Origin: Thermomonas carbonis
GTDB lineage: Bacteria; Pseudomonadota; Gammaproteobacteria; Xanthomonadales; Xanthomonadaceae
Length of the DNA stretch: 64,000 nucleotides
Assembly: GCF_014396975.1 (NCBI RefSeq)
Contig: NZ_CP060719.1
Location: forward strand, 3,134,001-3,198,000
Direction of reading: 5' to 3'
The notes below the pieces were generated by a model, which ran no database searches, was not told the origin of the DNA, and was given only the letters and a program-made list of their open reading frames with translations. Each line of letters starts with the position of its first letter. The first letter of the stretch is position 1. Of the stretch, positions 32,822 through 64,000 are shown one piece after another. Both the position numbers and the translations under genes were made by a program.

Positions 32822-32914
32822 TGCACCTGCCGATCACCGTTCATGCCGAATGCCATTCCGCTTGCTCCTGTTTGCCTTGCCCGACACCACTTTCGCGATA
32901 ACGCGAAAACCCGC

Positions 32915-34156: not shown

Positions 34157-34390
34157 CCCGGTCATCGGCATTCGTATTCGCTGCACCGACGTGGCGCACA
34201 CTGCCGAGCATTCTTCGGCGTGCGCGCCACCGTCAACCATATGCCGTAGGAGCTATGCCGTTGGAACGGCGCGCATGGCTTGCTGGCAGCTTGCGCGTGC
34301 GACTAAGGTAAACGCCATCGAGCGCGCGTGCGTTCGCCTGTGTCGTGCGCGACACCGCGCAACGAGGACGGAACGCATGAAGGTACCGCA

Positions 34391-37057: not shown

Positions 37058-37180
37058 CCGCACCGCGCGACCCGGAGGGCATAGGCCTTCCGGCGAATGG
37101 CCGCCTTGCCGATGGCTATCTAGCCTGTGGCGTCACCGGTCGCGCATGTCGCGCCTCCCGGTTCATGCCGCGGGATCGCC

Positions 37181-39016: not shown

Positions 39017-40110
39017 GCACCGAGAGCGCAGGCCGATCACCGACACATCGCGATCACGTGGCCAGCATCGATCCGATGCAGCCCGCGCTCGAGCGACTGC
39101 ACGCCGAGCCGGGCCGTTTCGGTTTCTTCCAGGCGGTGCGGCTGCTGTATTCGGCGAACGGATTCGACGGCCGCGGCACCGGTTCGCGTCCCGGCCCGCT
39201 GCGCTTCACCACCCCGGCATCGCTCGCCTTTCCGCCATCCGAATTGCATTCGATCGAAGTCAGCGAAAGCAACACGCGCATGTGCGTGAACTTCATGGGC
39301 CTGACTGGTCCATCCGGTGTGTTGCCGCGCACGTACACGGAATTGCTGATCGCACGGAAGACCCATCGCGACCGCAGCGCGCAGGAATTCCTCGACGTTT
39401 TCAACCACCGGCTGGTCTCGCTGTTCTGGTTGGCATGGGCCAAGCACCGGCCTGAAATCGGCCGCCAGTTCGGCTTCCAGAATTCGGTGCTGCGCTACCT
39501 GGAATACGTGGTCGGGCTGGGCACCCCGGCATTGCAGGCACGGCTGCATCCGAACCGGCGCGTGGCCACCAAGACGCGCGAGTTGCCCGGCGCGGCGCTG
39601 GTGTATTTCTCCGGCCTGGTCGCACAGCGCCCGCATGGCGAACGCGCGATCGCGCAGGTGGTGTCGGCAGTGGTCGGCGCACCGGTGGAGGCCGCGGGCT
39701 GCCTGGGCACCTGGCAGACGATCTCCGATGACGCACGCACCCGACTGGGTCGCGATGCGCATCGGCTTGGCCACGGCTGCGTGCTCGGCACGCGCTACTG
39801 GGACCGGCAGACCACGCTGCGGTTGACCATCGGCCCGCTCGACCGCACGCGCTTCAACACCTTGCTACCGCGCGGCCCGCGGCTGGCCGATGTCATCGAA
39901 CTCACCCGCTTCCTCACTGGCCTGGCCATCGACCTCCGCGTGCGCCTGTCGCTGCGTGCGGACCAGGTGCCGCCGCTGCGACTGGGCGCGCGCGACCACG
40001 ACCGCCCGCAACTGGGCTGGAACACCTGGCTGGGTGGTCGTCGCGACCCCGAGCCGGCAAACGACTGCGAATTCCACTTTTCCGCAATGGGAGGCCAATC
40101 ATGGCGCTGA
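39013..40110 (+). CDS. tssG: T6SS baseplate subunit TssG
   Basis: 365 aa. Forms the baseplate wedge with TssE and TssF. Family blocks are GRFGFFQAVRLLYSA, PLRFTTPASLAFPPSELHSIE, NFMGLTGPSGVLPRTYTELLI, FLDVFNHRLVSLFWLAWAKHRP and LGTRYWDRQTTLRLTIGPLDR. ATG at 39013 overlaps the tssF stop (ATGA). The frame upstream is open but lies in tssF. Its end overlaps tssH by 10 bp. Confidence 0.95.
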   Translation: MSTESAGRSPTHRDHVASIDPMQPALERLHAEPGRFGFFQAVRLLYSANGFDGRGTGSRPGPLRFTTPASLAFPPSELHSIEVSESNTRMCVNFMGLTGPSGVLPRTYTELLIARKTHRDRSAQEFLDVFNHRLVSLFWLAWAKHRPEIGRQFGFQNSVLRYLEYVVGLGTPALQARLHPNRRVATKTRELPGAALVYFSGLVAQRPHGERAIAQVVSAVVGAPVEAAGCLGTWQTISDDARTRLGRDAHRLGHGCVLGTRYWDRQTTLRLTIGPLDRTRFNTLLPRGPRLADVIELTRFLTGLAIDLRVRLSLRADQVPPLRLGARDHDRPQLGWNTWLGGRRDPEPANDCEFHFSAMGGQSWR

Positions 40111-48262: not shown

Positions 48263-48829
48263 TCAGCCGCCGGTGGCCTGGATCTCGACGCGGCGATTCT
48301 CGCCGGCATCCGGATCATCCGCGTTCAGCAGTTGGCTCTCGCCCTTGCCGACCGCACGCAGGCGCGCCGAGGCGACGCCGTTGTCCATCAGGTAGCGGCG
48401 CACCGCAGCGGCGCGACGGTCGGACAGGGCCTTGTTGTAGGCCGCCGAACCACTGGCGTCGGTGTGGCCGATCACGGTGAACTTGCGGCCTTCCAGCTGC
48501 GGCGAGGCAAGCGCCTTGGCCAGCGTGGCCATGGTCTTCTCGGAGCTGCCGGCGATCTCCGCCGAGTTGTACTCGAAGTTGATCTGCATGTTGATCGACG
48601 CCGGCTTGGCCGGTGCCGCGGGCGCAGGTGCCGGAGCGGTGGCCATCGAGGCCGCACCGGGACGCAAGGCGCGGGTCTGGCCCTGCTCAGAGGCCGGTGT
48701 GTCCGACTTCAGGCTGTCGATGATCGAATCCACCGACGGTGCACTCTGCGGATCCTGCGCGAACGCGTTGCCGCAGGCGGCAAGCACCGCGATCGCAACG
48801 GCGGTGCGGAGATATTTGGTCATGCTCAT
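48263..48829 (-). CDS. OmpA-like peptidoglycan-binding protein, probable lipoprotein
   Basis: 188 aa. N-terminus MSMTKYLRTAVAIAVLAACGNAFAQ has a possible lipobox (LAAC, Cys19) and also a possible type I site (AFA|Q). A short Pro/Ala linker leads to an OmpA/MotB C-terminal domain (about 85-188), with INFEYNSAEI and GHTDASGSAAYNKALSDRRAAAVRRYL, which holds the Asp and Arg that bind diaminopimelate. I chose ATG 48829, behind AGGATGGG. It pairs with the PAAR gene. Because TssL here lacks such a domain and tssJ is missing, this protein may anchor the T6SS membrane complex to the wall; that is inference. Confidence 0.85.
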   Translation of the reverse strand: MSMTKYLRTAVAIAVLAACGNAFAQDPQSAPSVDSIIDSLKSDTPASEQGQTRALRPGAASMATAPAPAPAAPAKPASINMQINFEYNSAEIAGSSEKTMATLAKALASPQLEGRKFTVIGHTDASGSAAYNKALSDRRAAAVRRYLMDNGVASARLRAVGKGESQLLNADDPDAGENRRVEIQATGG

Positions 48830-49047
48830 CGTCCCATCCTCAGTAACGTGGTGGCCTTGCGGCCGGAATGCATTGGATGCACGGGCCAGTGCCCGGCCTT
48901 TCCCGGAAGTCTGCACCGCACGCGGCAACGATTCGATACCACATTCGGCCTAGTTCCGGCGTGTGCGGCCCGCATCCCGACTAGCGCCGATGGGATATCG
49001 CCGCCGCCGCGGCCGCTGCCTACCCTGAACGGAAATCCGGGGGTTCC

Positions 49048-50409
49048 ATGGAAGCGATGCGGCAACTGCTGCTGGCATCGGGCATCGCCGCCTGCGGCGG
49101 GCTGGCGGGCGCGCTTGCATCATGGATCCTGATATCGCGCCGCACCCGGCGGGAAGCCATCCGCCTCGCTTCGCTGGTGGATGCCGAACCAGCGGCACCC
49201 CACCAGACCGCAGTGCCCGAACTCGCCCCGCTCCTGGCCGCCTGGCGACATCGCCACGACAGCCTGTTGGCGGGCAGCGAAACGCATGCCGCGCAGTATA
49301 GGCACCTATCCGCCGAGATGGTCGGGCTGATGCAGCAGGCAGATGGTGCGCAGCGCGCCAAGGAGCGTTTCCTGGCCGCCAGCAACCACGACCTGCGGCA
49401 ACCGCTGCAGGCGATGGATCTGGCCCTCGCCCGCCTGCGCCGCAACGCGCAAGCAACACAAACCGCCGACATCGAGGGCCTGCAGGACGGCATCCGGACC
49501 ATGGCCGACATCCTCGACGGCCTGTTGCTGCTCTCCCAGCTCGAGGCCGACAGCCTGCAGGCGCAACCAGTGGCCTGCGACCTGCAGGATCTGTTCGCCG
49601 AACTGCTGCTCGCCCATCGTGGGCGAGCGCAACTGGCCGGCGTCGCCCTGCACGCGAATGCACAGGCGCTGGCGGTCACCACCGACCCGGGACTGCTGGC
49701 CGGTCTGCTCGGCCGGCTGCTGGACAATGCGATCAACGCGACCCCGACCGGCGGCCGCGTGCTGCTGGCGGCGCGGGTGCGCGGCGAACGTATCCGCATC
49801 GAAGTGCGCGACAACGGTGTCGGCATCGCGCCGGTGCACCAGCCGCGGGTGTTCGACGAGTTCTTCCAGGTCGGCAATCCCGAGCGCGACCATCGCAAGG
49901 GCTTCGGCCTGGGCCTGGCCATCGTCTCGCGACTGGCCGCCCTGCTCGGCGGCCGGGTCGAACTGCGCTCGCGACTGCATGGCGGCAGTTGCTTCCGCAT
50001 CGACCTGCCGCGCGCGACCGCCGGCAAGCGCATGCCGCAGGCATGGGTGCTTTCCGATGTACCAGCCGACGCCGAAACCCTGCCGGCGATGCTGCAGGCC
50101 TGGGGTTACGCCGCGATGTTCGCCACGGCCCAGCGCCTGGGGCAGCCCCTGCAGGGCATCAAGGAAGGGATCGATGCGGTGGTCTGCGCCATCGATGCTG
50201 CCGATGATCCAGCGTGGGCGGCATTGGAGGCGATCGCCCGGCAACATCCGCGCGCCATCCTCATCGTCCTGTCGGCTACCGCGAGCAGCGAGATCTTCGA
50301 GCGCGCCGGACGGATGCATGCACGCGTGCTGTTGCGACCGCTGGCACCTGCCAAGTTGCGCGCCCTTCTGGCCCAGCGCGGCGTGACCACCCTGGCCGGC
50401 GCCGCCTGA
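49048..50409 (+). CDS. Sensor histidine kinase with degenerate receiver domain
   Basis: 453 aa. One N-terminal membrane helix (about 8-30), a short coiled coil, HisKA with H114 in AASNHDLRQPLQAM, and an ATPase domain (RLLDNAINATPTGGRVLL; DNGVGIAP; GFGLGLAIVSRL). The C-terminal 110 residues have receiver length and a 'LRPLAPAKLRALL' end, but the acidic pair, the phospho-Asp and the invariant Lys (here Arg) are missing, so it is a pseudo-receiver. It is related in its kinase core to the gene at 18837. It diverges from the OmpA-like gene over 218 bp that contain no other gene. Confidence 0.85.
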   Translation: MEAMRQLLLASGIAACGGLAGALASWILISRRTRREAIRLASLVDAEPAAPHQTAVPELAPLLAAWRHRHDSLLAGSETHAAQYRHLSAEMVGLMQQADGAQRAKERFLAASNHDLRQPLQAMDLALARLRRNAQATQTADIEGLQDGIRTMADILDGLLLLSQLEADSLQAQPVACDLQDLFAELLLAHRGRAQLAGVALHANAQALAVTTDPGLLAGLLGRLLDNAINATPTGGRVLLAARVRGERIRIEVRDNGVGIAPVHQPRVFDEFFQVGNPERDHRKGFGLGLAIVSRLAALLGGRVELRSRLHGGSCFRIDLPRATAGKRMPQAWVLSDVPADAETLPAMLQAWGYAAMFATAQRLGQPLQGIKEGIDAVVCAIDAADDPAWAALEAIARQHPRAILIVLSATASSEIFERAGRMHARVLLRPLAPAKLRALLAQRGVTTLAGAA

Positions 50410-50434: not shown

Positions 50435-53400
50435 TCAGAAGCTGCCGCAACCGTTCTCGCGTTCGCTGTCGAAGCAGTTGGTCAGGTTCGGCCGCGAGCG
50501 CACCCTGGTCCATTCCGTGGAGAGTCCGTCGCCGGTCGTCGCCAGGCCGGTATCGTCGATCGAGGCATTCACCGCGCACACCGGCGCGCCGCCGAAGTTG
50601 CGGTCGTACACGTAGGTGTTGATGGTCTCGCGAATGAAGTTGACCGGCCTGCCCGGCACCGACGGCAACAGGATGACCTGCAGGGCCGTCGCGTTGCCCG
50701 GTGCCTGCGCGAACACGTAGTTTCTCGCGCTGGTCCCGCCGATCACCGGGTAGAACCCGATCGGCGACAATGGCCCGGCCGGCGACGACCAGATCACCGT
50801 ATCGCCGAACACGCTGGCCACGGTATCTCCGTTGCGGAAACCGCTGACGGTGCCGGTGAAATCCGGATTCGGGAAGCCGAGGTAACGGACCGCGCCATCG
50901 GCGGTGAACAGCAGGGTGGCCGGGGTGATCGCCAGCGTGCCAGGCACGAACTGGATCTGGTAGCCGGCGGCCGAGGTGAAGTTACCGAGGATCGGATAGA
51001 GGCCGACGTCGCTGCCGATGGTCGCCGTGGTACTCGCACTGCCGACGGCCACATTGGCGGCGGTGTCGCCCAGGATCGCGCCGGTCACGCTGAAGGTGAA
51101 CAAGGGATTCGGCAGGCCGTACTCGCGGGTGGCATTGTCGAAGGTGATCGTCGCGATCGGCTGTTGCACGTAGATGAAGTGGTTGTCGCCGCTGGTCACG
51201 GTGACACCGCAGGTGCCGAGATACGCGCAGCCGTAGAGGTTCGGCAGGTTGCCGTCGCCGGCCAGGCCGCCGCGGGTTTCGCCCTCCCAGGTATTGGCCC
51301 ACACCCGCCAGTCGCCGCTCGCCACCAGGCTCGCACCCGCCACGTTCTGCAAGCGTCCCGCGGTGACCAGGTCGATGTTGGTCGCGGTCACGCCGGCGTT
51401 GAGTGTGAGATCGCCTTGCAGGTTGCGCACGAACGCATCGCCACCGGCCGTGATGCCGGTCGCACCGAAGCTGGACAACTGCCCGGAAGACGCATCGAAG
51501 CCGATCGCCGACACGCTGCCGATCGCCAGGGTGTTGGCGTCCTGGAACTCGAAATCGCCACCGGCCAAGCCCGCCAGCGTGGTGTCGGCCACGTCGTTGA
51601 GCGCAGTCGCCAGCAGCACGTCGCCACCGGCCTGCGCGAGCAGGCTGTGCGCGGTGATGACGCCTGCACTGGTCTGGATGATGGATCCGCCGGTGGACAG
51701 CGCCAGCGTGCCATCGCCCACATCGAGTGCCGCCTGCAGGTCGATGCCGCCAGTACCGCCGGTGTTCTGCAGGGTCAGGTTGCCATCGCGGCTGACGCCG
51801 CCGATGACCTGGATGGCACCGGCATGCAGGTTGCTGCCGATGATCAGTTCGGGGGTTTCAATCCGCCCGAGCTCGTCGTCCGTCAACGCGAAGCCCGCCG
51901 TTCCACCGATCAGGATTTCATCGCCGGTACGCTCGGTCAGTCCGCCATTCAGATCCACACCGCCGGGACGCAGGTTCACTCCAACGCCACTGCGAATGAT
52001 GCCGCCGAGGCCGATCGCGTCTCCGTTTCCGGCATTGCCTGCACGGATCACGACCAAGCTGTCGCCGGCATCCACGACTGAACCACCACCGAGGCGCACG
52101 CCTCCGCTCCCGCCTTCGCCGCTCAGCTCGACGCCGCCACCGTTGGTCGCGATGGACACGTTCTCGCCGATTTCCAGTCCGATCGAGAACCCCGAAATTC
52201 CACGGCCGCGCAGATCGATGTGGCCGCTGTCCGTGGTGAATTCGCCACCGCCCAGCAGCAAGCCGTAGTCCGCGCCGATGCCGGTCAGGCTGATGCCGCC
52301 CGTGCTGGTGGCGACTGCGGATGTTCCGAAGAACCTGAGCCCCGTGCCGCCGGCGGCATTGCCGAGAATCGAGACATCTCCTGCCCCCGCCGAAATCTGC
52401 GCATTGACCAGGCCCACACCCATTCCCGCCAAGCCAGACGCCATGCCGGTGATGTCGATGGTGCCGCCAGCGCTGTCCAGATCCGTGCCAGCAAGCGACA
52501 CGCCAAGCAGCCCGCCCTCGCCCTCGATCGTGATGGAGCCACCATCGCTCGCGACGTCGTTCTCGGTCATCAGGACGCCTGTATTCGCACCGGCTCCGAT
52601 TACGCTGATCGCACCGCCGCCGCTGCCGATCGCGAACGCGCCACCATCGCCCAGTTGCACACCCACGCCCCCGGCACTGGTGCCGGTGACGCTGATGTTG
52701 CCGCCATTGGTGACCAGGCCATCGCCGGTCACGCGCACGCCGGCAATGGCCGTTGCAGCCGTGGCGGTGCCTTCCAGGGTGATGTCGCCGCTGTCGGTAT
52801 CCAGCGCACCGTCGGTGATGTCCAGGCCGAAGTCCGCGCCGGTGCCATAGAGTCCGATCGCGCCGGTCGTGGTGCTGATGCTGCTGCCGTTGGCCATGGC
52901 GATGCCGATGCCGGCCACCGCGCTGCCGGTCACACTCACGTCACCTGCGCCGCCGATGAGTTGCGCCGCATACAGCGACACACCCGCGCCCCCCGCAGCG
53001 GATGCGGTGCCGTCGATGTCGATGCCACCGCCCGCGCTGTCCACATTGCTGCCATCCAGCGAAACACCGACATCCGCGCCATTGCCGAGGATGCTGATCG
53101 CACCACCCGCACTTGCAACCTGATTGCCCTGCATCAACACACCGGCATCGATGCCGGTGCCTTCAATGGTGATTGCGCCGCCGCCGCTGCCGATCGCAAA
53201 TGCACTGCCATCGCCCAGTTGCACGCCCACGCCGCCGGCACTGGTGCCGGTCACGGTGATGTCGCCACCATTGGTGGTCAGGCCATCGCCGGTCACGCGC
53301 ACGCCGGCAATCGCTGCCGCCGATGTCGCGGTGCCTTCCAGGATGACATCGCCGCTGTCCGTATCCAGCGCGCCGTCAGTGATATCCAGGCCGAAGTCCG

Positions 53401-56400
53401 CGCCAGTGCCGTACAAGCCGATCGCGCCGGTCGTCGTCGAGATGCCCGCGCCGTTGGCCAGCAACACGCCGACACCCGCCGTCGCAGTGCCGCGCACGGT
53501 CACGTCGCCGGCACCGCCAACGAGCGCTGCATCGTCCAGCGACACACCGATGCCGCCCGGGTCGGACGCAGTCCCGGTCACCGTCATGACGCCGCCATCG
53601 CTATCGAAGCTTCCGTCCAGCAACACGCCAATCGCCGCGCCGGTACCGAGGATGTCGATTGCACCGCCATCGCTCTCGACCGAGCTGCCCTGAACCAGCA
53701 CGCCGGCGTCGATGCCGGTGCCCTCGATGCTGATCGCACCGCCGCCGCTGCTGATGTCTGCGAACGCATCCCCGTCGCCAATCTGCACGCCAACGCCGCC
53801 GGCGCTGGTGCCGGTGATTCTGATGTCGCCGCCATTGGTGATCAGGCCATCGCCGGTCACCCGCACGCCGGCGGTCGCCGTTGTGGCCGTCGCCGTGCCT
53901 TCCAGGGTGATGTCGCCGCTGTCGGTGTCCAGCGTGCCGTCGGTGATGTCCAGGCCGAAGTCCGCGCCCGTGCCGTACAGGCCGATTGCGCCAGTGGTGG
54001 TCGAGATGGCGCTGCCATACCCGAACTCGATGCCGATGCCGCCCGCCGCAGCACCGCGGACAATCACGTCGCCTGCACCGCCGATCAATTGCACGTCGTA
54101 CAGGGACACGCCCGCGCCGTCCACCGCGGTTGCGGTGCCATCGATCTCGATGTCGCCGCCGGCACTGTCGACATCGCTGCCATCCAGCGAGACGCCGACA
54201 TCCGCGCCGGCACCGGTGATCGACACCGCACCACCGCCACTCGCCACCTGGTTGCCATCCATCAGCACACCGGCGTCGATGCCGGTGCCTTCAATGGTGA
54301 TCGCACCACCGCCGCTGCCGATCGCAAACGCAGTGCCATCACCCAGTTGCACACCCACGCCACCTGCGCTCGTTCCGGTGACCGTGATGTCGCCGCCATT
54401 GGTGACCAGGCCAGCGCCGGTCACGCGCACGCCGGCCACGGCATCCGCCGCAGTCGCCGTGCCGTCCAGGGTGATGTCGCCGCTGTCGGTATCCAGCGCA
54501 CCGTCGGCGATGTCCAGGCCGAAGTCCGCGCCGGTGCCGTACAGGCCGATCGCGCCCGTCGTGGTGGAAACGCTCGCGCCGTATTCAAACAGGATGCCGA
54601 TGCCGGCCGCGGCGCTGCCATCAATCACGACATCGCCCGCCCAGGCAATGACCTCCAGATCGGAAAGCTCGACGCCAACGGCATCGGCGGCGGACGCGGT
54701 GCCGATGATCGTGATCAGGCCACCGCCGCTGTCGATGTTGTTGTTGCCATAGCCGCTGCCCACCAGCAGCGCACCGGCAGTCACGCCGTAGCCGGTCAGG
54801 TCGATGCTCCCACCCGCGCTGACGATGCCGTTCAGGAAACCGCCCCTGAATGTCAGGCCTTCCGCGTCGGTACTGACGCCGTAGATCTCGATGTCGCCGC
54901 CATCGCTGTTGATTTCGCCGGTGAACGACGTCCCTGCTTCGGTGCCGCCCTCGCCACGCACGACGATGTTGCCGCCGCCGCTTTGCAGCCCGCCGCCCAT
55001 GAAGGCATAGACGCCGTATTCACCGCCCGTGCCGGTGATGGAAACATCGCCGCCTTCGCTGTCCAGGTCGCCGTAGAAGTCGACGCCGCTGGCGTCGCCA
55101 TTGCCGGTAATGGTGATATTGCCGCCACCCCCTAGTATCTCGCTCAGATCAAAGAACACGCCATCGTTGGTGCCGCCTTCGCCTTCGATCATGACGTTGC
55201 CGCCACCCGAATCGAGCAGCGAACTCAGAGCAACCACGCCGCTGGTGTCGCCCACGCCCAAGCCGTAAATGTCGATGGCACCGCCACCGGTATCGATGTC
55301 CGTGTCATCCAGCAGCACGCCGGCAGCGTCTTCGCCCGGGTCGTCGCCCGTTGTGCTGCCGCGCAACGACAGGCTGCCGCCGCCCGTGCTGATGGTGCTG
55401 TCGGTGAGTTCAATGCCGCTGTCGTAGCCGCTGGCGGTCCCGTTCAACGGATCCGACTGGCCGTACATCGCGATGTCGCCCCCATTGCTGTCCAGCGTTG
55501 CATTGCTGAACGTGATGCCCGAGAAGCCGGTGTTGAGACCGGAAGCGTTGCTGTTGAACACCATGTCCAGCGTGCCGCCGAGACTGGTGATCGAGAACGC
55601 GTTGCCGGCAATTTCGCCTTCCGCATTCACGGCGAACGTCAGTGGCGATGCATTGTTGGCGACGATTTGCGCATCATCGAAGAACGCATCGTCACCCGAC
55701 TGCAGCACCACGCTGGTGCCGGTCAGGAGGGCGTAGTTGATCTCGGCATCCTGCACGCTGTCGCCCAATTCCGGTGCAGCGACGCTGCCAACGTCGGTGC
55801 CATTGACCACGGTGAGCGACGGTGCCGACAGCAACCAGCTGCCCGCGGTGCCATTGGTGGCACCGGCATCGACCAACAGCCCGCGGAAGTCGAAAGTGCC
55901 ATCGGACGCGGTGATGATGCTGCCGCCGGCGGTGTTGCCATGCGCAGACAGCAGGCCATAGGCCGCCAGCGCATTGGTTGCGCGGAACCCGACCGTGCCA
56001 CCGGCGCCGGCACCGCCATCCGCACTTGCTCCGGAATCTTCGGTAAGGACGATGGTCTCGGCCACGCCGGCGATCTGGCCGCCATTGCCGGTGCCGCCAT
56101 TGGCGCTGACGAAGCCATCAATCGCAAGCCCGCCGTTCATCGCCGACATCAATACCGAGCCGCCATTGTTGGCACCCGTGGCGGAGACCGTGCCGATCAG
56201 GAACAGGTTGCCGGTGCTGGACAACAGGCCCACGCTGCCGCCGTTGCCGTCGACCTTCGTCGTGGCACTGATGTCACCCTGGATGAGGATGCTTCCGACT
56301 GCGGCGACGCTGACTTGCCCGGCCGTCCCGGCATCCGCATCCGCGATGATCCGCGAAAACCCGAGCATGGTCACGCCGTCGCTGGACTGGATCTCCACCT

Positions 56401-57514
56401 GGCCGCCACCGGCGTCGCCGGAGGCATTGATCATGCTGCCGACCGAGAACGGATCGGTGGGATTGGTGGGCGTGGCATCGTCGTTGACGAATTGCACGCC
56501 ATTGCCCTGGATCAGCACCGATCCGCCGGTTTGGCCCGGGCCGCCGGACACATCGATCAAGCCTGCGGTGAAAGGCGAACTCACGTCGTCGTAGAAGCCC
56601 AGGGCTCCTACCATCACCGGCCCGCCGATGCTGGTGAGCTCGACCCGCCCGTTGACGTTGGCGATCGACCGCGCCTGGAGCGTGCCGGATGCATAAATCG
56701 CGCCACCAGTCCCACCGGTGGTCGCAGCGGTGCGCAGCAGGATCTGCCCGCCATCCGCGATCATCGAACCGGCATTCTCCTGGGCAATCACGGAATCCAC
56801 CGTGGGCGGCACATTGATGGTGACCTGAGTCAGGCCGTCACCGAACATGTCCAGCGTCACTTGCGTACCCGCACCCGCGACGATGTTGCCGCCATTGCTG
56901 GTGATCGCCCCCCCGTTGCGGATGCCCTGGCCGACAAGTCCGACACCGCCTGCACCTGCGGTGATCGTGCCGTCGTTGCGCACTTCGTGGAAGGTGCTGG
57001 TGTCGCCGTTGAAACCGCTGAACACGTATTGCCCAGTCGCCAGGCCATTGATGAAGTCGCCCGAGTTCATCCACAGCGTCGAGGCGACGATGCCGCCGAC
57101 GTTGACCTGTGCGCCACTGCCGAAGGTGATCCCCGCCGGGTTGATGATGAACACGTTGCCGTTGCTGGTCAGCGTGCCGTCGATGAACGACGCACTCGTC
57201 GAGTAGCCGAACCCGACCACCCGGTTCAAGGTCACGCTCGTGTTGCCGAACTGCTGGTCGAACGTCACCCCGTAGCCAGCCCCGATGTTGAAGCTGCCCC
57301 AGTCGATGATCGCGCCCTTCGTGGTCTGCGTCACCGTCATCTCGTTGCCCGACTGGCCGATCGTGGCACTGCCGTTCACCACGCTGCCGCTGTTCGGGAT
57401 GTTCTGCGCCAGCGCCGGCATCATCGGCATCGCCATCGCGCCCACCAGCGCCAGCGCCAAACGCCGGCGACGGATCGTCCGAAGCTGCTTCCGTGTCGTC
57501 TTCTTCATGCGCAT
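50435..57514 (-). CDS. Giant TpsA exoprotein (filamentous hemagglutinin-like adhesin)
   Basis: 2,359 aa; secreted by the partner TpsB encoded just upstream. A signal peptide with a long basic n-region (MRMKKTTRKQLRTIRRRRLA..., cut near ALA-Q37) is followed by the TPS domain (about 38-290), with the NPAG motif at 125-128 in VFIINPAGITFGSGAQVNVGG. A long beta-helical stalk includes tandem 188-residue repeats (about 960-1715). Near the end are MBG-type beta domains (YGLPNPLFTFSVTGAILGDTA; FPNPDFTGTVSGFRNGD), and the protein terminates NCFDSERENGCGSF. I chose ATG 57514, seven bases after AGGAG; 57520 and 57508 are alternatives. It starts 11 bp after tpsB. Adhesion or biofilm is the usual role; the target is unknown. 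Confidence 0.9.
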   Translation of the reverse strand: MRMKKTTRKQLRTIRRRRLALALVGAMAMPMMPALAQNIPNSGSVVNGSATIGQSGNEMTVTQTTKGAIIDWGSFNIGAGYGVTFDQQFGNTSVTLNRVVGFGYSTSASFIDGTLTSNGNVFIINPAGITFGSGAQVNVGGIVASTLWMNSGDFINGLATGQYVFSGFNGDTSTFHEVRNDGTITAGAGGVGLVGQGIRNGGAITSNGGNIVAGAGTQVTLDMFGDGLTQVTINVPPTVDSVIAQENAGSMIADGGQILLRTAATTGGTGGAIYASGTLQARSIANVNGRVELTSIGGPVMVGALGFYDDVSSPFTAGLIDVSGGPGQTGGSVLIQGNGVQFVNDDATPTNPTDPFSVGSMINASGDAGGGQVEIQSSDGVTMLGFSRIIADADAGTAGQVSVAAVGSILIQGDISATTKVDGNGGSVGLLSSTGNLFLIGTVSATGANNGGSVLMSAMNGGLAIDGFVSANGGTGNGGQIAGVAETIVLTEDSGASADGGAGAGGTVGFRATNALAAYGLLSAHGNTAGGSIITASDGTFDFRGLLVDAGATNGTAGSWLLSAPSLTVVNGTDVGSVAAPELGDSVQDAEINYALLTGTSVVLQSGDDAFFDDAQIVANNASPLTFAVNAEGEIAGNAFSITSLGGTLDMVFNSNASGLNTGFSGITFSNATLDSNGGDIAMYGQSDPLNGTASGYDSGIELTDSTISTGGGSLSLRGSTTGDDPGEDAAGVLLDDTDIDTGGGAIDIYGLGVGDTSGVVALSSLLDSGGGNVMIEGEGGTNDGVFFDLSEILGGGGNITITGNGDASGVDFYGDLDSEGGDVSITGTGGEYGVYAFMGGGLQSGGGNIVVRGEGGTEAGTSFTGEINSDGGDIEIYGVSTDAEGLTFRGGFLNGIVSAGGSIDLTGYGVTAGALLVGSGYGNNNIDSGGGLITIIGTASAADAVGVELSDLEVIAWAGDVVIDGSAAAGIGILFEYGASVSTTTGAIGLYGTGADFGLDIADGALDTDSGDITLDGTATAADAVAGVRVTGAGLVTNGGDITVTGTSAGGVGVQLGDGTAFAIGSGGGAITIEGTGIDAGVLMDGNQVASGGGAVSITGAGADVGVSLDGSDVDSAGGDIEIDGTATAVDGAGVSLYDVQLIGGAGDVIVRGAAAGGIGIEFGYGSAISTTTGAIGLYGTGADFGLDITDGTLDTDSGDITLEGTATATTATAGVRVTGDGLITNGGDIRITGTSAGGVGVQIGDGDAFADISSGGGAISIEGTGIDAGVLVQGSSVESDGGAIDILGTGAAIGVLLDGSFDSDGGVMTVTGTASDPGGIGVSLDDAALVGGAGDVTVRGTATAGVGVLLANGAGISTTTGAIGLYGTGADFGLDITDGALDTDSGDVILEGTATSAAAIAGVRVTGDGLTTNGGDITVTGTSAGGVGVQLGDGSAFAIGSGGGAITIEGTGIDAGVLMQGNQVASAGGAISILGNGADVGVSLDGSNVDSAGGGIDIDGTASAAGGAGVSLYAAQLIGGAGDVSVTGSAVAGIGIAMANGSSISTTTGAIGLYGTGADFGLDITDGALDTDSGDITLEGTATAATAIAGVRVTGDGLVTNGGNISVTGTSAGGVGVQLGDGGAFAIGSGGGAISVIGAGANTGVLMTENDVASDGGSITIEGEGGLLGVSLAGTDLDSAGGTIDITGMASGLAGMGVGLVNAQISAGAGDVSILGNAAGGTGLRFFGTSAVATSTGGISLTGIGADYGLLLGGGEFTTDSGHIDLRGRGISGFSIGLEIGENVSIATNGGGVELSGEGGSGGVRLGGGSVVDAGDSLVVIRAGNAGNGDAIGLGGIIRSGVGVNLRPGGVDLNGGLTERTGDEILIGGTAGFALTDDELGRIETPELIIGSNLHAGAIQVIGGVSRDGNLTLQNTGGTGGIDLQAALDVGDGTLALSTGGSIIQTSAGVITAHSLLAQAGGDVLLATALNDVADTTLAGLAGGDFEFQDANTLAIGSVSAIGFDASSGQLSSFGATGITAGGDAFVRNLQGDLTLNAGVTATNIDLVTAGRLQNVAGASLVASGDWRVWANTWEGETRGGLAGDGNLPNLYGCAYLGTCGVTVTSGDNHFIYVQQPIATITFDNATREYGLPNPLFTFSVTGAILGDTAANVAVGSASTTATIGSDVGLYPILGNFTSAAGYQIQFVPGTLAITPATLLFTADGAVRYLGFPNPDFTGTVSGFRNGDTVASVFGDTVIWSSPAGPLSPIGFYPVIGGTSARNYVFAQAPGNATALQVILLPSVPGRPVNFIRETINTYVYDRNFGGAPVCAVNASIDDTGLATTGDGLSTEWTRVRSRPNLTNCFDSERENGCGSF
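52260..54640 (-). repeat. Tandem 564-bp coding repeats in the giant TpsA gene
   Basis: The anchor TCCAGGCCGAAGTCC-type sequence (IGLYGTGADFGLD... in protein) recurs at 52821, 53385, 53949 and 54513, exactly 564 bp (188 codons) apart. A fifth, diverged copy at 52266 keeps the same phase. Several blocks are nearly identical between copies, so copy number can change by recombination and assembly here needs long reads. Confidence 0.9.
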
Positions 57515-57525
57515 CGCCATGCTCC

Positions 57526-59214
57526 TCAGAACGCCTTCTGGATCGACCAATACACCCGCGGATTGCGATCGCCGCCATCCGTCAGGCCAACTCCCGTCCC
57601 ACGCCACGCCACGCTCAGGTTCATCGTCACCTGGCCCGGCTTGCTCCAGTTGAAGCCCACGCCATGCCCGCGCAAGCTGCGGCTGGTCACCACGTCCACC
57701 GCCCGCGGGTCGTGGAAGAAGTCGCCCTTCGCCGCGTCATAGAACGCGAACAGCGACGCCTCCGGCCTCAGCGCATACCGCAACTCCACCGTGCCCAGCC
57801 AGCCGTCGTCCGCCAGCACCTCGCCGGTCGCGTACGCGCGCACCGCCTTCGGGCCGCCCAGCGACAACTTCTCGTAGGTGTCCAGGTTCTTGCTCGCCCG
57901 CTGCAACCCGCCGCCCAGGTACAGGCTCAGCTTCGGTGCCACGTACTGCAGCCGTGCGAACTGCATCGTCAGCTTGCCGAAGCTGCCTTCCGTGTCGTAG
58001 CCGAACGGCGGCTTGTCGAACGCCTCGCTCATCGCATCGCGGATATCCAGACTGCCCCGGTATACCTGCGCGTTCAGGCTGGTGTAACCACCGCCCAGCC
58101 AGGTGTCGCGCTTCTCCAGCGCAATCCCGATCCCGAGCCCGCGGATCCGCTTCCTCGACTCGAAGCCCACCGCCTCGAAGCGGTCGGTCAGGTCCTTGTT
58201 GTCCAGCGCCCCGCGCAGGAACAGGTTCGTGGTGCGCTGGCGGATCAGCGGATAGCTGAACGACACGTCCGCCACGTTGCCCACGCCGGTCGGTTCCAGC
58301 GCCGCGAACGGGCCGCCCAACTCGTACTGCACCCGGGCGAGGCCGCCGCCGATGCGCAGGCCGGTGTAGCCCACCGGGGTCTCGTACGACAGCCGCCCGA
58401 ACGCCGTGTGCATCCCCTGCGCCAGCATCACCCGCAGGTCCAGGTTGTCGCCGCGCTCGAACGGGCTGGCCCAGCGCAGGCTGCCGGTGATCCGGTGCCG
58501 ACCCGAGTCGCGGCTGCCGAAGTTGTCCAGCTCCAGCCCGAACTGCAGGCGGTCGCGCTGCCCCACCTTCACCGTCAGGTCGGTGGTGCCATTGACCGCG
58601 CCGGCCGAGATCGCCGACTGCGGCTTGATCCCCGGCAGGTCCGACAGCAGCAGCATCGCCCGCTCGTAGCGCTGGCCGTTCAGCGGCTTGCCCGGCTCCA
58701 GCACCGCCAGCGTCTTCGCTACCCGCTCCTGCTGCACCGGCGCGCCCTCGGCGACCTCGATGCTGACGTTGCCCAGTGATCCTTCGCTGACATTGAAGGT
58801 GACTTGCCCGTCGGTGACTTCCTGCACCGGCACGAACACCTGCACCAGCGCATAGCCGTGCGTGCGGTACACCGCGCTGGCCTTGGCCGCCAGTTGCTCC
58901 AGGTCGCTGAAGGTCACCGACTGGCCGATCTTGCCGGCCACGGCCGCCTGCAGCTCCGCTTCCGGCACATCGGTCGTCCCGCTCACGCCAACGAAGCGCA
59001 CGCCCTGCAGCACGAAGCTGGCCTGGCCGGCCATCTGCGGCTCCGGCAGGGCCTGTGCCTGCTGCGGCGTGGCCGAGGGCGTGTCCTGCGGCATCGGCAC
59101 TGCGTCATCGGCATCTGCTGCCTCGCCGGCCCAGCCGAAGGGCGCGCAGGCCAGCAGCGACAGCGCCAGCAGGTTCATCGTCAGCGGCCTGCGCCGCGGG
59201 GTCTGCGTGTGCAT
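57526..59214 (-). CDS. TpsB outer-membrane translocator (ShlB/FhaC/HMW1B type)
   Basis: 562 aa. After a signal peptide (MHTQTPRRRPLTMNLLALSLLACAPFGWAG) come POTRA domains (about 60-210; FVLQGVRFVGVSGTTDVPEAELQAAVAGKIGQ, HGYALVQVFVPVQEVTDGQVTFNV) and a 16-stranded barrel. The barrel carries GLELDNFGSRDSGRHRITGSL, GGPKAVRAYATGEVLADDGW and a C-terminal aromatic end (YWSIQKAF). ATG 59214 has GGAAGAG five bases upstream; ATG 59238 is possible. It lies between the CHAT gene (32 bp upstream) and tpsA (11 bp downstream), so the three form one operon. It probably exports both TpsA proteins. Confidence 0.92.
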   Translation of the reverse strand: MHTQTPRRRPLTMNLLALSLLACAPFGWAGEAADADDAVPMPQDTPSATPQQAQALPEPQMAGQASFVLQGVRFVGVSGTTDVPEAELQAAVAGKIGQSVTFSDLEQLAAKASAVYRTHGYALVQVFVPVQEVTDGQVTFNVSEGSLGNVSIEVAEGAPVQQERVAKTLAVLEPGKPLNGQRYERAMLLLSDLPGIKPQSAISAGAVNGTTDLTVKVGQRDRLQFGLELDNFGSRDSGRHRITGSLRWASPFERGDNLDLRVMLAQGMHTAFGRLSYETPVGYTGLRIGGGLARVQYELGGPFAALEPTGVGNVADVSFSYPLIRQRTTNLFLRGALDNKDLTDRFEAVGFESRKRIRGLGIGIALEKRDTWLGGGYTSLNAQVYRGSLDIRDAMSEAFDKPPFGYDTEGSFGKLTMQFARLQYVAPKLSLYLGGGLQRASKNLDTYEKLSLGGPKAVRAYATGEVLADDGWLGTVELRYALRPEASLFAFYDAAKGDFFHDPRAVDVVTSRSLRGHGVGFNWSKPGQVTMNLSVAWRGTGVGLTDGGDRNPRVYWSIQKAF

Positions 59215-59246
59215 GGGAACTCTTCCGCGATGGGTCATCGACGTAC

Positions 59247-61466
59247 TCACTTCTGCACCGTCAGGCGCCAGTTGCCGATCAGGTTGAACGGGGCCCAGAA
59301 GAACGGGTGCGCGGTCTCCGGGTTGGCCAGCACCGCGCGCTGCGCGTCGCGCATCGCGTCCTGCACCTGCTCGCCCTTGGCCAGGTCGTCGTACAGCGTG
59401 GTCATCAACGTCTCCGTGGCCGCATCCGACACCGGCCACAGCGAGGCCAGCAGCGTGCTGGTCCCGGCCGACAGGAACGAGCGGGTGAAGCCCAACACCT
59501 CGTCGCCGTCCTCGACCCGGCCCAGCCCGGACTCGCAGGCCGACAGCGCGATCATCGCGGTGCCGCTCAGGTCCATGCCCAGCACGTCCTTGGCTTCCAG
59601 GTAGTTCGGCTGGCCGTTCTCGTCGGCCAGCAGCACCTTGCTGTGCAGCGGGTCCAGGGTATCCGCCACCGCGTGCGCGGCCACGTGCAGCAGCCGCGCC
59701 TTGGGCGCGCTGGCCGTGAAGTTGCTCTTGTTCGCCTGGTCCTTGAAGAACAGCGTCGCGCCCGGGAACTGCTTCGACAGTTCATGCACCTCGCGCTCGG
59801 CACCGGGCAGCGGGTCGGCCACGTCCGGGTTGATCGTCGGGTTGCCGAACGCCACCAGCTGCGCGGCCACCGTCGGCGTGCGCTCGGCCAGCTTCGCCGC
59901 GATGCTGATCGACGGGGCGATGCTGATCGGATTGCGTTCGATCAGGTACTGGCCGTCCAGGCGCAGCGCCTGGAATGGCAGGTAGTGCAGCGGGCCGTGC
60001 GGGACGATGATGATCCGCTTGCCGGCCGGGATCTCGAGCGGGGCCAGCAGCAGCGTGCCGATCTTGTCGCCCACGTCGGTGGCCGGCTTCAGGTTGATCA
60101 GCGCATCGCGGTAGGCATCCACCAGCCGCGCCAGGTCCGCGCGCTTGACCGCCACCGGCAACGTGGCCTCGCGCACGCCCTCATTGGACAGCACCCACGC
60201 CATCAGCCGGTCCGGCAGTGCGTGGTAGGCCACCACCACTTCGTCCGGGCGCAGCATCGTCTGCAGGGTCGCCGCGTCCAGCGCGACTGCCTCGCCATTG
60301 CCGATCTCGGCGCGACCGGCCACCGCGTCCAGCAACGCGCGGGCGCGGCTGCGCTCGCTGACATCGAAGGCCTTGGCCGGCTGGCCGAGCCGGGTGTGCA
60401 TGCCGATCGCCCGCTCGAACACCACCTGCAGGTCCGAGAACAGGCCCATCTTGAACTCGTCGCTGCGGAACTTGGCGCGGGCCTTGTCGAACACGTCGAT
60501 CGCCTGGTCCAGCGCCTGCGCGGCTTGGGCTTCGTTGCCCAGGGCGGACTCGCTCTTGCTGATGCCGTCCAGCGCCCACGCCCGGTAGAAACCTTCATCG
60601 CCGTTCACCGGCGCATTGGCCAGTTGCTGGTACAGCACCAGCGCTTCGGCCGGCTTGTTCTCGGCCAGCAGCAGGCGCCCACGGGTACGTTGCAGCTGGG
60701 CCTGCTGCGAAGGATCGCTGGGCACTGCCAGCGCGTCCAGGGTGCTGCGCGCGCGGGTCAGGTCGCCGGACAGGATCAGCGCATTGGCCAGCGAGGCATC
60801 CACCAGCGGGCGGAAGCGGTCCGAACTCTCGGTCCGCGCCTGGTCGTACAGCGCGATGGCTTCGGCGAAGCGCTTCTGCCGCGTGCGCACATCGCCCAGC
60901 ACCTTCTTGCCGGGGCCGTTGACCTGGGTCGGGTCGACCCCGGGGTACTTCAGCGACAGGGTCGCGAACTGTTCGGCCCGCTCCAGCTGGCCGGCGTAGC
61001 TGAACGCGATCGCCAGGTCGCGATACGCCTTGCCCAGCAGGTCGGTGTTGCCGGTCTGCAGCGCCACGTGCAGCGCCTTGCTCGCCGCCCGCGTGCTCTC
61101 GCGGAACTCGCCCTTCTCCGCCAGCTCCACCGCCTGGCTGCAATACGCATACCCGTCCAGCTTCACCACGTCGCGTTCGTACAGCGCCGCGCCTTCCGCC
61201 GCCAGCGACAGCGCCGTGTCCGCATCCTCCAACCGGCCGATCGCCGCCAAGGCCTGGCGCGCTTCCGACTGCATATCGACCGCGGCGGCAGGCGCTGCAG
61301 GTGCCGATTGCGGCGTCGACTGCGGCACGGGCGATGCAACCGCAACCGCAGACGCCGTCAACGCTCCTCCCAACGGCGCGCAAGTGGCTTGCACCACGGG
61401 GCTGGCAAGCGACAACGCCAGCAGGAAAACGGCAAAGCCGGCGGAGGACGACGCGGTACGACGCAT
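59247..61466 (-). CDS. Exported CHAT-domain caspase-like protease with TPR repeats
   Basis: 739 aa. Signal peptide MRRTASSSAGFAVFLLALSLASPVVQA. A TPR-like helical region (about 60-400; GKAYRDLAIAFSYAGQLERAEQFATLSL, KRFAEAIALYDQART) precedes a CHAT domain (about 440-739). The catalytic dyad is H598 (LLHVAAHAV) and C644 (IALSACESGLG), and the domain ends GASTLL-like GTSTLLASLWPVSDAAT and HPFFWAPFNLIG. ATG 61466 with GGGAG eight bases upstream was chosen over 61520. It is the first gene of the operon with TpsB and TpsA. CHAT proteases cut specific partner proteins, so processing of the TpsA proteins in the periplasm or at the surface is a reasonable hypothesis. Confidence 0.9.
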   Translation of the reverse strand: MRRTASSSAGFAVFLLALSLASPVVQATCAPLGGALTASAVAVASPVPQSTPQSAPAAPAAAVDMQSEARQALAAIGRLEDADTALSLAAEGAALYERDVVKLDGYAYCSQAVELAEKGEFRESTRAASKALHVALQTGNTDLLGKAYRDLAIAFSYAGQLERAEQFATLSLKYPGVDPTQVNGPGKKVLGDVRTRQKRFAEAIALYDQARTESSDRFRPLVDASLANALILSGDLTRARSTLDALAVPSDPSQQAQLQRTRGRLLLAENKPAEALVLYQQLANAPVNGDEGFYRAWALDGISKSESALGNEAQAAQALDQAIDVFDKARAKFRSDEFKMGLFSDLQVVFERAIGMHTRLGQPAKAFDVSERSRARALLDAVAGRAEIGNGEAVALDAATLQTMLRPDEVVVAYHALPDRLMAWVLSNEGVREATLPVAVKRADLARLVDAYRDALINLKPATDVGDKIGTLLLAPLEIPAGKRIIIVPHGPLHYLPFQALRLDGQYLIERNPISIAPSISIAAKLAERTPTVAAQLVAFGNPTINPDVADPLPGAEREVHELSKQFPGATLFFKDQANKSNFTASAPKARLLHVAAHAVADTLDPLHSKVLLADENGQPNYLEAKDVLGMDLSGTAMIALSACESGLGRVEDGDEVLGFTRSFLSAGTSTLLASLWPVSDAATETLMTTLYDDLAKGEQVQDAMRDAQRAVLANPETAHPFFWAPFNLIGNWRLTVQK

Positions 61467-61493
61467 GCGGGGTGCTCCCAGACGTGAACGGAC

Positions 61494-61509
61494 ACAGGCG
61501 AAAGCCTGT
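61494..61509 (-). other. Small hairpin in the leader of the CHAT-TpsB-TpsA operon
   Basis: ACAGGC-TTTC-GCCTGT on the minus strand, 28 bp before the CHAT start codon. The 168-bp gap 61467-61634 must also hold the operon promoter if it is not read through from the upstream tpsA; I see no convincing -35/-10 pair. Confidence 0.4.
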
Positions 61510-61634
61510 ATCGGATTCAACGGAGTCTAGGAACGGTGCAGGACATCGCCCACTGTCGATTAGGCATAGCCCATCTTGGCGTGGATCCGGTGTCCGGAAT
61601 CCTCGCCATTGCGCGTATCCGGCCTACAATGCCT

Positions 61635-64000
61635 TCAGAATCGGCATCCAGGCGCGTTATTGCTGTCGATGCAATTGTTCAATCGCAGCCGATGACGGGA
61701 TTTCAGCCATTCCCTCCCCAGTACATCCCGGCTCGCTCCTGCCTGAAGCGGGTCGGCCGCATCAGCCACCGGGCAGATCGCCGCGTGCAGCAGATCAGTC
61801 ACCGAACCATCCAGTTCTTCTTCGTCGAACAATTCAGCAACGGATTCCGGTGCGATCGGCGACTGCCGGAAGCGCTGCTCCTGGTAGATGAACTGGTTGC
61901 CCTCGCCGATTCCCTCGCAACTCTCCTGTCCGAACGAGCAACCAAACACATCGAACTGGCCATCGCCCTGCAGACCGCCGCGCTCCTCGCCTTCCGGCGT
62001 GCGCGCAAAAATCCGCCAGGACTCGCTTGCGGTCAGTGACGCGCCTGCAGGATTGAGGAACAGGTCGGCCGCCACCAGGTCGATGCTGCTGCCGCTGACA
62101 TCCGCGCCGAGGGTGAGGTTCCCGCTTGCGGTCACCACCAGCACGTTGCCTTCGGCCTCGATACCGGTGGCCGACAGCGAAGTCAGACCCGCGTTGTCGA
62201 TCAGGCTGAAGCCGAATGACGACACCTCGCCGATCGCAAGGTCGTCCACGTCTTCATAGGCGAAATCACCCCCCGCCGAACCGGCCACACTCGTGGCCGC
62301 CACGTTGTTCTGTGCGGCAGTCAGCGACACGTCGCCACTGGCGATCGCCAACAGGCTGTGCGCGGTGATTGCACCGGCCGAGGTCTGCTCGATGTCGCCG
62401 CCACTGGCAAGCGTGAGGATGTTGTCGCCAACATCGACAGCGGCCTGGAGGTCGATACCGCCATCACCCCCCTGGTTCTGCAGGGTCAGGTCGTCGTCCC
62501 AGTCGACCGCTTCCATCACCCGGATCGCACCTGCATGCTCGGCGCTGCCGATCACCAGCAGCGGCGCATCGATCAATGCCAGTTCGGCGCTGGTCAGCGA
62601 GAACCCGTTGCCTGCGCCGAGCAGGATCGTATCGGCCTCATCGACCGCGCGCAGGTTGACCGCGGTGGTGCTGGCAATACTGCCCCGCAGGATGATCGCG
62701 TCGACGTTGCCGTCGTTGCTGGCGGCCAGACTCACCAGGCCAGTGCCACCATCGATGCTCGAATCTGCGTCCATTCGAATACCGGCGCGATCGGTTCCTG
62801 AACCGATGACGTAGATGTCGCCCGTGGTGCTGGACACATCCCCATCGGACATCCACACGCCACCGGCACCCTCACCCTCGATCGCGATGTCGCCGGACGC
62901 GGTGACGATTTCGGCATCGCCACTCATCAGCACCGCGTAATAGGAATCACTGACCGCACTGATCGATACATCGCCAGAGGTCGTGGACACCATGCTGCCC
63001 TGACCGAGCGAAACGCCGGAACCGGCGCTACCGCCACCACTTCCGATCAGGCTGATGCTGCCCACCCCACTGTGGATACCGACCGCCGACAGGATCAGGC
63101 CGGTCGAGGCACCTTCACCGGTGATCGCGATATCGCCACCGCCACTGGTGATGTCGGCACCGGACACCTGTGTACCGGCCATGTTCGTGCTGGTGCCATG
63201 GATCGTGATGTCGCCGCCATTGCTGGTGATGTCACCGCCATTCACCCACACCCCGGTCACGTCCACGCTGCTGCCGATGATGGTGATGTCGCCGCCGTTG
63301 CTGGCAAGCCCGCCGGAGCCGACCTGCACGCCGAAGCCGCTGCCCAGCGCATGGCCTTCCAGAGTGATGTCGCCGGTGTCCGTGGTGAACGGCACGCTGC
63401 CCACGCTCAGGCCCGACAAGCCCGTGCTGATCACGCTAATGGCACCGCTGGTGGTGGTCACGCTGCTGCCGGGACCGTAGGCCGTGCCACCGAAAAACAT
63501 GCCTGAACCGTTCGCGGCGCTGCCGTCGACGGTGATGCTGCCACTCGTGCTGGCGAGTGCGGCATCGCGCACGCTGACGCCAAAAGCGCCGGCCCCGGAG
63601 GCCACGCCCGTGATATCGATATCGCCACTGCCGCTCGACACCAGGTTCTCCCACACCTGCACGCCATAGAGAACGCCTTCTCCAAGCACGCTGATGTCGC
63701 CGCCATTGCTGACGATGTCGCCCTCGTACAGCCAAACGCCCGTGGCAGCGCCACGACCGGTGATGGTGATGTTTCCGCCGTTCGTGGTCAGTCCACCGCT
63801 GCTGATGAACACGGCGGCGGTGGCGTCTTCGTCCAGCGCATACCCGGTCAGGCTGATGTCGCCGCTGTCGGTGGTCAGCGTGGCATCACCAAGGCCCAAT
63901 CCGCTCAATCCCGTACTGGTCAGCGAGATGGCACCGCTGTCGGTGGTGAAGCTGGTGACGGTAGACGTTTGTGTCTGTTCGTCGTAAACCGACCATAGCT
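61635..64000 (-). CDS. Second TpsA-type exoprotein, C-terminal part (5' end beyond window)
   Basis: About 788 residues are visible, open to the window edge. Beta-helical repeats (GGDITITG-type strands every 20-30 residues, such as ITSNGGDITIHGTSTNMAGTQV) are related to, but not identical with, those of the first TpsA. A shared block (LTLQN.GG.GGIDLQAA.DVGD...SAG.ITAHSLLA) is followed by ESWRIFARTPEGEERGGLQGDGQ, FGCSFGQESCEGIGEGNQFIYQEQRF, and a tail ending NNCIDSNNAPGCRF. It lacks the MBG domains of the first. It lies upstream of the CHAT gene on the same strand and probably shares TpsB. Function is presumed surface adhesion. Confidence 0.85.
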   Translation of the reverse strand, partial: LWSVYDEQTQTSTVTSFTTDSGAISLTSTGLSGLGLGDATLTTDSGDISLTGYALDEDATAAVFISSGGLTTNGGNITITGRGAATGVWLYEGDIVSNGGDISVLGEGVLYGVQVWENLVSSGSGDIDITGVASGAGAFGVSVRDAALASTSGSITVDGSAANGSGMFFGGTAYGPGSSVTTTSGAISVISTGLSGLSVGSVPFTTDTGDITLEGHALGSGFGVQVGSGGLASNGGDITIIGSSVDVTGVWVNGGDITSNGGDITIHGTSTNMAGTQVSGADITSGGGDIAITGEGASTGLILSAVGIHSGVGSISLIGSGGGSAGSGVSLGQGSMVSTTSGDVSISAVSDSYYAVLMSGDAEIVTASGDIAIEGEGAGGVWMSDGDVSSTTGDIYVIGSGTDRAGIRMDADSSIDGGTGLVSLAASNDGNVDAIILRGSIASTTAVNLRAVDEADTILLGAGNGFSLTSAELALIDAPLLVIGSAEHAGAIRVMEAVDWDDDLTLQNQGGDGGIDLQAAVDVGDNILTLASGGDIEQTSAGAITAHSLLAIASGDVSLTAAQNNVAATSVAGSAGGDFAYEDVDDLAIGEVSSFGFSLIDNAGLTSLSATGIEAEGNVLVVTASGNLTLGADVSGSSIDLVAADLFLNPAGASLTASESWRIFARTPEGEERGGLQGDGQFDVFGCSFGQESCEGIGEGNQFIYQEQRFRQSPIAPESVAELFDEEELDGSVTDLLHAAICPVADAADPLQAGASRDVLGREWLKSRHRLRLNNCIDSNNAPGCRF

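Follow-up and report, generated by a model that had tools for sequence, protein, structure and literature searches.

To our knowledge, the characterized prokaryotic CHAT proteases act inside the cell, in defense. According to excerpts of its published description, the TPR-CHAT protein of Craspase depends on an H585/C627 dyad, mutation of the cysteine abolishing cleavage, and its CHAT activity is switched on by a conformational change (PMC9729208). In two-partner secretion (TPS), excerpts of two reports describe how the periplasmic cysteine protease LapG cuts the adhesin CdrA near its C terminus, and how the C-terminal cysteines of CdrA are thought to form a hook anchoring it to CdrB (PMC11898600, PMC4694147). 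Here, we analyze a window of 64,000 nucleotides (bases 3134001 to 3198000 of a 3.46-Mb single-contig Thermomonas genome; coordinates below are window positions) in which the gene for an apparently exported CHAT protein shares an operon with the transporter (TpsB) and the giant secreted protein (TpsA) of a TPS system. This pairing recurs, and it comes with a candidate substrate element and a candidate cut site.

None of the domain families involved is new, and each gene already has a name in public annotation. What appears to be new is the recurrent module of an exported CHAT with TPS, together with its TpsA tail and its link to type VI secretion: we found no description of the CHAT-TPS combination in the open full-text literature in PMC (subscription papers and preprints lay outside this scope, and many results were judged by title or the start of the abstract). 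If the reading developed below is right, it would give the separase/caspase clan a role in the periplasm and provide a second, unrelated enzyme type for the release of TPS adhesins.

A CHAT gene in a two-partner secretion operon

The operon lies on the minus strand in the order CHAT–TpsB–TpsA1. Its first gene (59247–61466, with an ATG start at 61466) encodes a 739-amino-acid protein with a signal peptide, a TPR region, and a C-terminal CHAT domain (PF12770, 222 bits against a cut-off of 24 in the Pfam scan) that carries His598 and Cys644 (616 and 662 in the longer frame). After a gap of 32 bp comes TpsB (57526–59214; 562 amino acids), identified as an outer-membrane transporter of two-partner (type Vb) secretion by its POTRA_2 (54 bits) and ShlB barrel (78 bits) domains, and after a further 11 bp comes TpsA1 (50435–57514; 2,359 amino acids), a type Vb TpsA by virtue of its N-terminal TPS secretion domain (PF05860, 84 bits; TIGR01901, 66 bits), which also contains repeats, MBG_2 domains, and a C-terminal cysteine tail. 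There are no internal stops. A preliminary description of this DNA had claimed a tight operon with these two gaps, an intact dyad, a signal peptide on CHAT, and a second TpsA directly upstream, and each of these points held: in an alignment of nine sequences from the genus, both catalytic residues and the start methionine are invariant, and all nine N termini read as signal peptides. An alignment of the catalytic domain to solved CHAT chains (8d9f, E = 1.5e-5) spans both catalytic residues. Because of its signal peptide, CHAT is probably located in the periplasm, where the C terminus of exported TpsA would remain. A cytoplasmic CHAT protein, which the preliminary description had regarded as fatal to its proposal, is unlikely given these nine sequences and the N termini of 51 other CHATs, 43 of which score as signal-like under a crude hydrophobicity criterion that we devised.

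The second TpsA is a member of a tandemly duplicated gene set. A 4.3-kb minus-strand segment covering the 5′ part of TpsA1, TpsB, and most of CHAT (57075–61411) is 99.8% identical to positions 66196–70531, beyond the window. TpsA2 (1,666 amino acids, minus strand; the gene extends to 66635, so that the window contains its C-terminal part, 61635–64000) lies upstream of CHAT, 168 bp separating its end from the CHAT start. It is identical to TpsA1 over the first 147 residues and divergent thereafter, but the two tails are of one kind, the diverged tail of TpsA2 retaining the three cysteines and the Arg discussed below. The distal TpsB copy is intact (same length as TpsB, no internal stop), whereas the distal CHAT copy is broken, its matches to CHAT falling in two frames; one intact CHAT may, therefore, serve both TpsAs here. 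Upstream of the broken copy, the translations alone can be read as proA, proB, argH, and argC. In another Thermomonas species, a single CHAT-TpsB pair is followed by two tandem TpsA genes that are tailed but differ from each other (L054, 44–6442 and 6554–12076).

Within the genus, CHAT has a match in 22 of 24 other genomes, and the order CHAT–TpsB–TpsA (the last recognized by its TPS domain or C-terminal part) is maintained on one strand in all 20 same-genus loci that were fetched. Among these 20, TpsA is split over two frames in L040; CHAT and TpsB are split in L055, with part of TpsA in another frame; TpsB and TpsA share one open frame in L038 (8287–13950), either a real fusion or a sequence error; and TpsA runs off the fetched stretch in L048 and L050. 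A TpsB match adjoins CHAT in the remaining two CHAT-bearing genomes (G015 and G023). Of the two Thermomonas genomes that lack CHAT, G007 has no TpsB match and G016 has a divergent TpsB (34% identity). None of 11 sampled genomes from other genera of the home family, Lysobacteraceae, has a CHAT match, although a search with the CHAT alignment recovered, besides Thermomonas records such as T. haemolytica DSM 13605 (L090) and T. beijingensis, a relative in one such genus, in Luteimonas salinisoli (L092).

Across Pseudomonadota, PF12770 (E ≤ 1e-10) matches 93 of 397 genomes, and the transporter domain PF03865 was found in 48 of 80 further PF12770-positive genomes (80 of the 92 others were searched, 12 being left out). 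Among the 129 CHATs listed from 67 genomes, 22, spanning 18 genomes, have a TpsB no more than 15 kb away, whereas about 0.9 would be expected from TpsB numbers and an assumed 4.5-Mb genome; 20 of the 22 pairs share a strand. Gene order varies: CHAT–TpsB–TpsA (L101, L104, and L105), TpsA–TpsB–CHAT (L098), TpsB–CHAT–TpsA (L099 and L102), TpsB–TpsA–CHAT (L113 and L122), CHAT–TpsA–TpsB (L117), and divergent arrangements (L107 and L108), with tight gaps and overlaps seen among these loci as well. Conserved synteny, on whose presence the preliminary description had staked its proposal, is kept in the genus, and CHAT and TPS genes are neighbors in other families as well.

In a tree of 62 CHAT domains, TPS-linked rows fall into three supported clades: the first (100/98; 15 rows) holds Thermomonas, Luteimonas, Caballeronia, Paraburkholderia, and a family we designate f16; the second (100/99; 9 rows) comprises families f62 to f64; and the third (100/99; 10 rows) includes the TpsB–CHAT type. 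The placement of the f16 CHATs beside those of Caballeronia and Paraburkholderia makes it probable that f16 is Burkholderiaceae. One row labeled unlinked, L065, has a TPS-domain protein beside CHAT; once it is relabeled, no fewer than two gains or losses are required (two to three in bootstrap trees), against about 21 with shuffled labels. As judged from this tree, the minimum history is two origins, or one origin plus a loss; one origin without loss is incompatible with the starred branches, and three independent recruitments, which we had entertained, are not forced and were dropped. The repeated pairing of CHAT with TPS still holds at two changes. The His/Cys dyad is intact in all 34 TPS-linked CHATs (the window's included) and in 27 of 29 labeled unlinked (L065 among them); both catalytic residues are gone from two lipoprotein-like CHATs (L125, 63–2534; L126, 8879–11377), replaced by Pro and Thr.

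Several other settings of CHAT were considered. For order-level CHATs, the genus profile found TpsB in none of 19 CHAT-holding stretches (of 20 fetched), nor did a wider profile; because L065 is among these stretches and has its TPS-domain neighbor, counts of unlinked CHATs are upper bounds. Cyanobacterial plasmid CHATs were rejected as TPS partners, no TPS gene being annotated in three Nostocaceae regions, and none in one Azospirillum region (this survey was small, with 30 of 84 matching records listed). Nor do CHAT proteins of ~2,600 to 2,850 amino acids appear to be TpsA-CHAT fusions: L110, the one scanned, consists of PD40 repeats, many TPRs, and a C-terminal CHAT, with no TPS domain, and no TpsB was found in the stretches of the large CHATs L109, L110, L111, L112, and L114. 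In another CHAT-TPS clade, a CHASE2/adenylate cyclase gene (L107, 4788–6740) and a DUF928 gene (L065, 8713–9390) adjoin CHAT.

The cysteine tail of TpsA

TpsA1 ends in a tail (50435–50578, minus strand; the last 47 residues plus the stop) that we propose as a hook and as the target of CHAT. Across 34 distinct tails of Thermomonas/f16-type TpsAs, three cysteines, an Asp, a Leu, a Trp, a single Arg (8 residues before the second cysteine), and a terminal Phe are held in common, although the tails were gathered with a tail profile, which favors agreement among them. The three invariant cysteines include the C-terminal pair expected of a CdrA-like hook TpsA.

The distribution of the tail tracks that of this type of CHAT. 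A profile built from 18 tails (A2) was searched in three further genome sets. At the class level, 3 of 370 genomes match at E ≤ 0.01, one being the genome of the window and the other two marginal (0.0035 and 0.0082). In f16 (the family of G524), 10 of 200 genomes match, nine of them at E ≤ 1.5e-7, whereas the tenth (G1021, 0.0066) is matched only over the stretch before the cysteines. A near-full-length CHAT (at least ~660 bits) is present in exactly the nine tail-bearing genomes of these 200, with 11 further genomes showing domain-only matches of at most 187 bits (Fisher P = 8.5e-16, an overstatement, as the test treats relatives as independent). In the home family, the tail occurs in 21 of 22 CHAT-bearing genomes, TpsA being cut by the contig end in the 22nd (G011), and in none of 13 CHAT-less genomes at E < 1e-20, three of which (G007, G033, and G034) have marginal matches (0.003 to 0.01). 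Among genomes with several TpsB matches, G524, G462, and G520 have six, three, and two, one in each adjoining CHAT, and each has a single tail match.

The sequences establish that the genes form an operon, that CHAT bears an export signal and the dyad, that more than one CHAT lineage has been recruited, and that tail and CHAT are correlated. Starting from there, we infer that CHAT is a dedicated periplasmic, separase-like cysteine protease acting at the tail to trim or release TpsA, a reading to which we assign a probability of about one-half. TpsB would export TpsA N terminus first; the C-terminal tail, with its cysteine pair near the end, would stay behind as a hook holding TpsA on the cell; and CHAT, upon some trigger, would recognize the tail and cleave inside it or immediately ahead of it, the C-terminal side of its one invariant Arg being the probable site, such that TpsA is trimmed or released and attachment becomes reversible. 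That CHAT may be an active protease with TpsA as its substrate is suggested by the invariance of the catalytic residues and, in the genomes searched, by the restriction of the tail to those with this type of CHAT. The nearest functional precedent is the cutting of CdrA by LapG, and no LapG-family match turned up in any of 36 home-family genomes. Cleavage after Arg is a property of several clan CD proteases, which is why we name this residue as the candidate site. The dedicated protease put forward in the preliminary description, thus, finds partial support, from conserved co-occurrence and likely export, but that description had missed both the tail and the type VI link.

A number of observations weigh against release of TpsA by CHAT. 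Signal-bearing CHAT-TPR proteins without a TpsB neighbor are common; export alone, therefore, does not imply a role in TPS. The Thermomonas-type tail was not seen in the TpsAs examined from the other two CHAT-TPS clades, so that one substrate rule does not cover all CHAT-TPS pairs: the CHAT-linked TpsAs of L118, L120, L122 to L124, and L113 have a different C-terminal cysteine pair, and the large protein at the TpsA position in L116 has no cysteine at all, nor does its counterpart in L115 (cut by the locus end and without a Pfam match). A cysteine pair near the C terminus is likewise present in TpsAs lacking CHAT (L127 and L145), which rules out the pair alone as a marker of CHAT. The match between tail and CHAT could reflect one inherited cassette rather than an enzyme and its substrate. 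Finally, a LapG-family gene (PF06035, C93) is present in four of the nine CHAT-bearing f16 genomes and in 8 of 20 others, leaving mutual exclusion of LapG and CHAT unsupported in f16; the Pfam scan found no LapG-family match in the CHAT protein itself.

Type VI secretion genes beside the operon

The TPS operon follows a type VI secretion cluster (22.6 to 45.1 kb) and reads toward it. Minus-strand genes at 22592–34240 encode Hcp, TssC, TssB, TssA, TssM (IcmF), TssL (DotU with a C-terminal DUF4384 domain), and TssK, with a TraB/PrgY/gumN-family gene among them; TssF (37127–39016), TssG (38620–40110), ClpV (40101–42761), and VgrG (42927–45092) are encoded on the plus strand. Between the cluster and TpsA1 lie an OmpA-family gene (48263–48928, minus strand; 81 bits), an OmpA-like match being found past TpsA in some relatives as well, and a sensor histidine kinase gene (49048–50409, plus strand; HATPase_c and HisKA) convergent with TpsA1. 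Elsewhere in the window, a protein encoded at 8260–10521 has a weak match to a phage minor tail protein (PF10145, 36 bits).

VgrG and/or ClpV lie past TpsA in 13 of the 20 fetched same-genus stretches; of the other seven, L045 and L048 are short, and L050 to L054 come from genomes without a TssC match. TssC is present in 18 of 23 CHAT-bearing Thermomonas genomes (the window's included) versus neither of two CHAT-less ones, a difference that alone is not significant (P = 0.07). The distance from TssC to CHAT is 31.6 to 35.8 kb in all 14 Thermomonas genomes with both on one contig; they are on different contigs in four. In f16, all nine genomes with full-length CHAT have TssC versus 2 of 20 without (P = 5e-6; the 20 are the first listed of the 191 without full-length CHAT), at distances of 8 to 11 kb in G520, G1054, and G1009 and 53 to 62 kb in G524, G462, G935, and G1024, with the two genes on different contigs in G973 and G1057. 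On two large annotated Caballeronia replicons, the cassette sits inside the type VI cluster, between divergent tssJ and tssA: CHAT–TpsB–TpsA (L166, 9683–20931; L167, 9833–21092) ends 13 and 11 bp before tssA, and the adhesin gene is apparently cotranscribed with type VI genes. G520 (L101) has the same layout, and TssA, TssB, and TssC matches lie near the cassette in Paraburkholderia sp. PGU19 (L172) and in Luteimonas salinisoli. No type VI matches were found near L104 and L105 (G462 and G524) or near L115 to L124, in stretches of at most 20 kb, and G880 and G889 have TssC but no CHAT at E ≤ 1e-30, such that CHAT and TPS do not accompany every type VI cluster. The cassette is linked to type VI secretion without being a core component of it.

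Given this tie between cassette and type VI genes, seen in most Thermomonas genomes and in several Burkholderiaceae, the adhesin may mediate contact with cells under attack by the type VI system. A more elaborate version, which we consider doubtful, is a type VI contact module in which the CHAT-controlled giant adhesin would tether neighbors and CHAT, cutting the hook after the invariant Arg, would free them; a separase-like protease would then be a release switch for cell-to-cell attachment. In either event, the type VI link prompts one to ask by what means such systems grip their targets and let them go. An excerpt on the type VI variable region of Bacteroides fragilis reports CHAT proteins there as presumed immunity proteins (PMC11854122).

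Alternative roles and known systems

A conserved operon, an export signal, and a TPR region would also fit a periplasmic quality-control or maturation factor, its TPRs holding unfolded TpsA while the protease disposes of TpsA that has stalled or trims it somewhere other than at the tail. Pairs that lack the Thermomonas-type tail would agree with such a role, which we regard as possible but not probable: it is the tail that tracks this CHAT type (nine of nine genomes), and G524, G462, and G520 retain one tail each despite their several TpsBs. The neighborhood may point to a different partner, in that histidine kinase and OmpA genes lie beside TpsA1 and the cassette runs on the same strand into tssA in Caballeronia; a signaling protease that responds to stress in the envelope or on contact by cleaving a regulator (such as the OmpA-family protein, the histidine kinase, or a type VI component), thereby setting expression or firing, could account for both and would have a precedent in the conformational switching of the Craspase CHAT, as excerpted (PMC9729208). 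We think this unlikely, seeing that CHAT-TPS pairs exist without nearby type VI matches (none in L115 to L124) and that five Thermomonas genomes retain CHAT without a TssC match.

The pairing might also be without functional meaning, exported CHAT-TPR genes residing in variable islands and the cassette moving as a unit. Patchy presence (no CHAT in the 11 sampled genomes from other home-family genera, though Luteimonas salinisoli is positive) and carriage on large Caballeronia replicons are compatible with such hitch-hiking, but the pairing of more than one CHAT lineage with TPS in differing gene orders, the tight gaps and overlaps, and the dyad kept in 34 of 34 make it improbable. There is very little to be said for an antiphage or cell death protease like Csx29 or the gasdermin-activating CHATs: the domain family is the same, but the score against the NCBIfam Csx29 model (56.8 bits) falls far below its cut-off of 300, and the protein bears an export signal, on which grounds we rejected this role (Cas7-11 and gasdermin genes were not searched for).

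Release of TpsA by CHAT, the reading that we prefer, has parallels in several known systems, each of which differs from the Thermomonas locus. The HMW1/HMW2 adhesin loci are likewise duplicated TPS loci in which a C-terminal cysteine pair holds the adhesin, but their third gene encodes a glycosyltransferase rather than a protease. Proteolytic maturation and release of a TPS product is known for FhaB/FhaC, where SphB1 is a subtilisin-like surface protease and CtpA a periplasmic carboxy-terminal protease, without a CHAT–TpsB–TpsA operon. Csx29 in Craspase offers the nearest solved sequences (8d9f) and the same combination of TPRs with a CHAT domain and a His/Cys dyad; it is, however, cytoplasmic and is not known to have a TPS partner. 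It is also, in the excerpts cited above, the RNA-triggered part of a CRISPR complex that cuts Csx30 (PMC9729208). In LapG and CdrA of Pseudomonas aeruginosa, as excerpted, a periplasmic cysteine protease frees a giant TPS adhesin near its presumed hook cysteines, much as we infer here; LapG, however, is transglutaminase-like rather than a CHAT protein and is controlled by LapD and cyclic di-GMP, whereas in Thermomonas the protease gene lies within the operon of the transporter.

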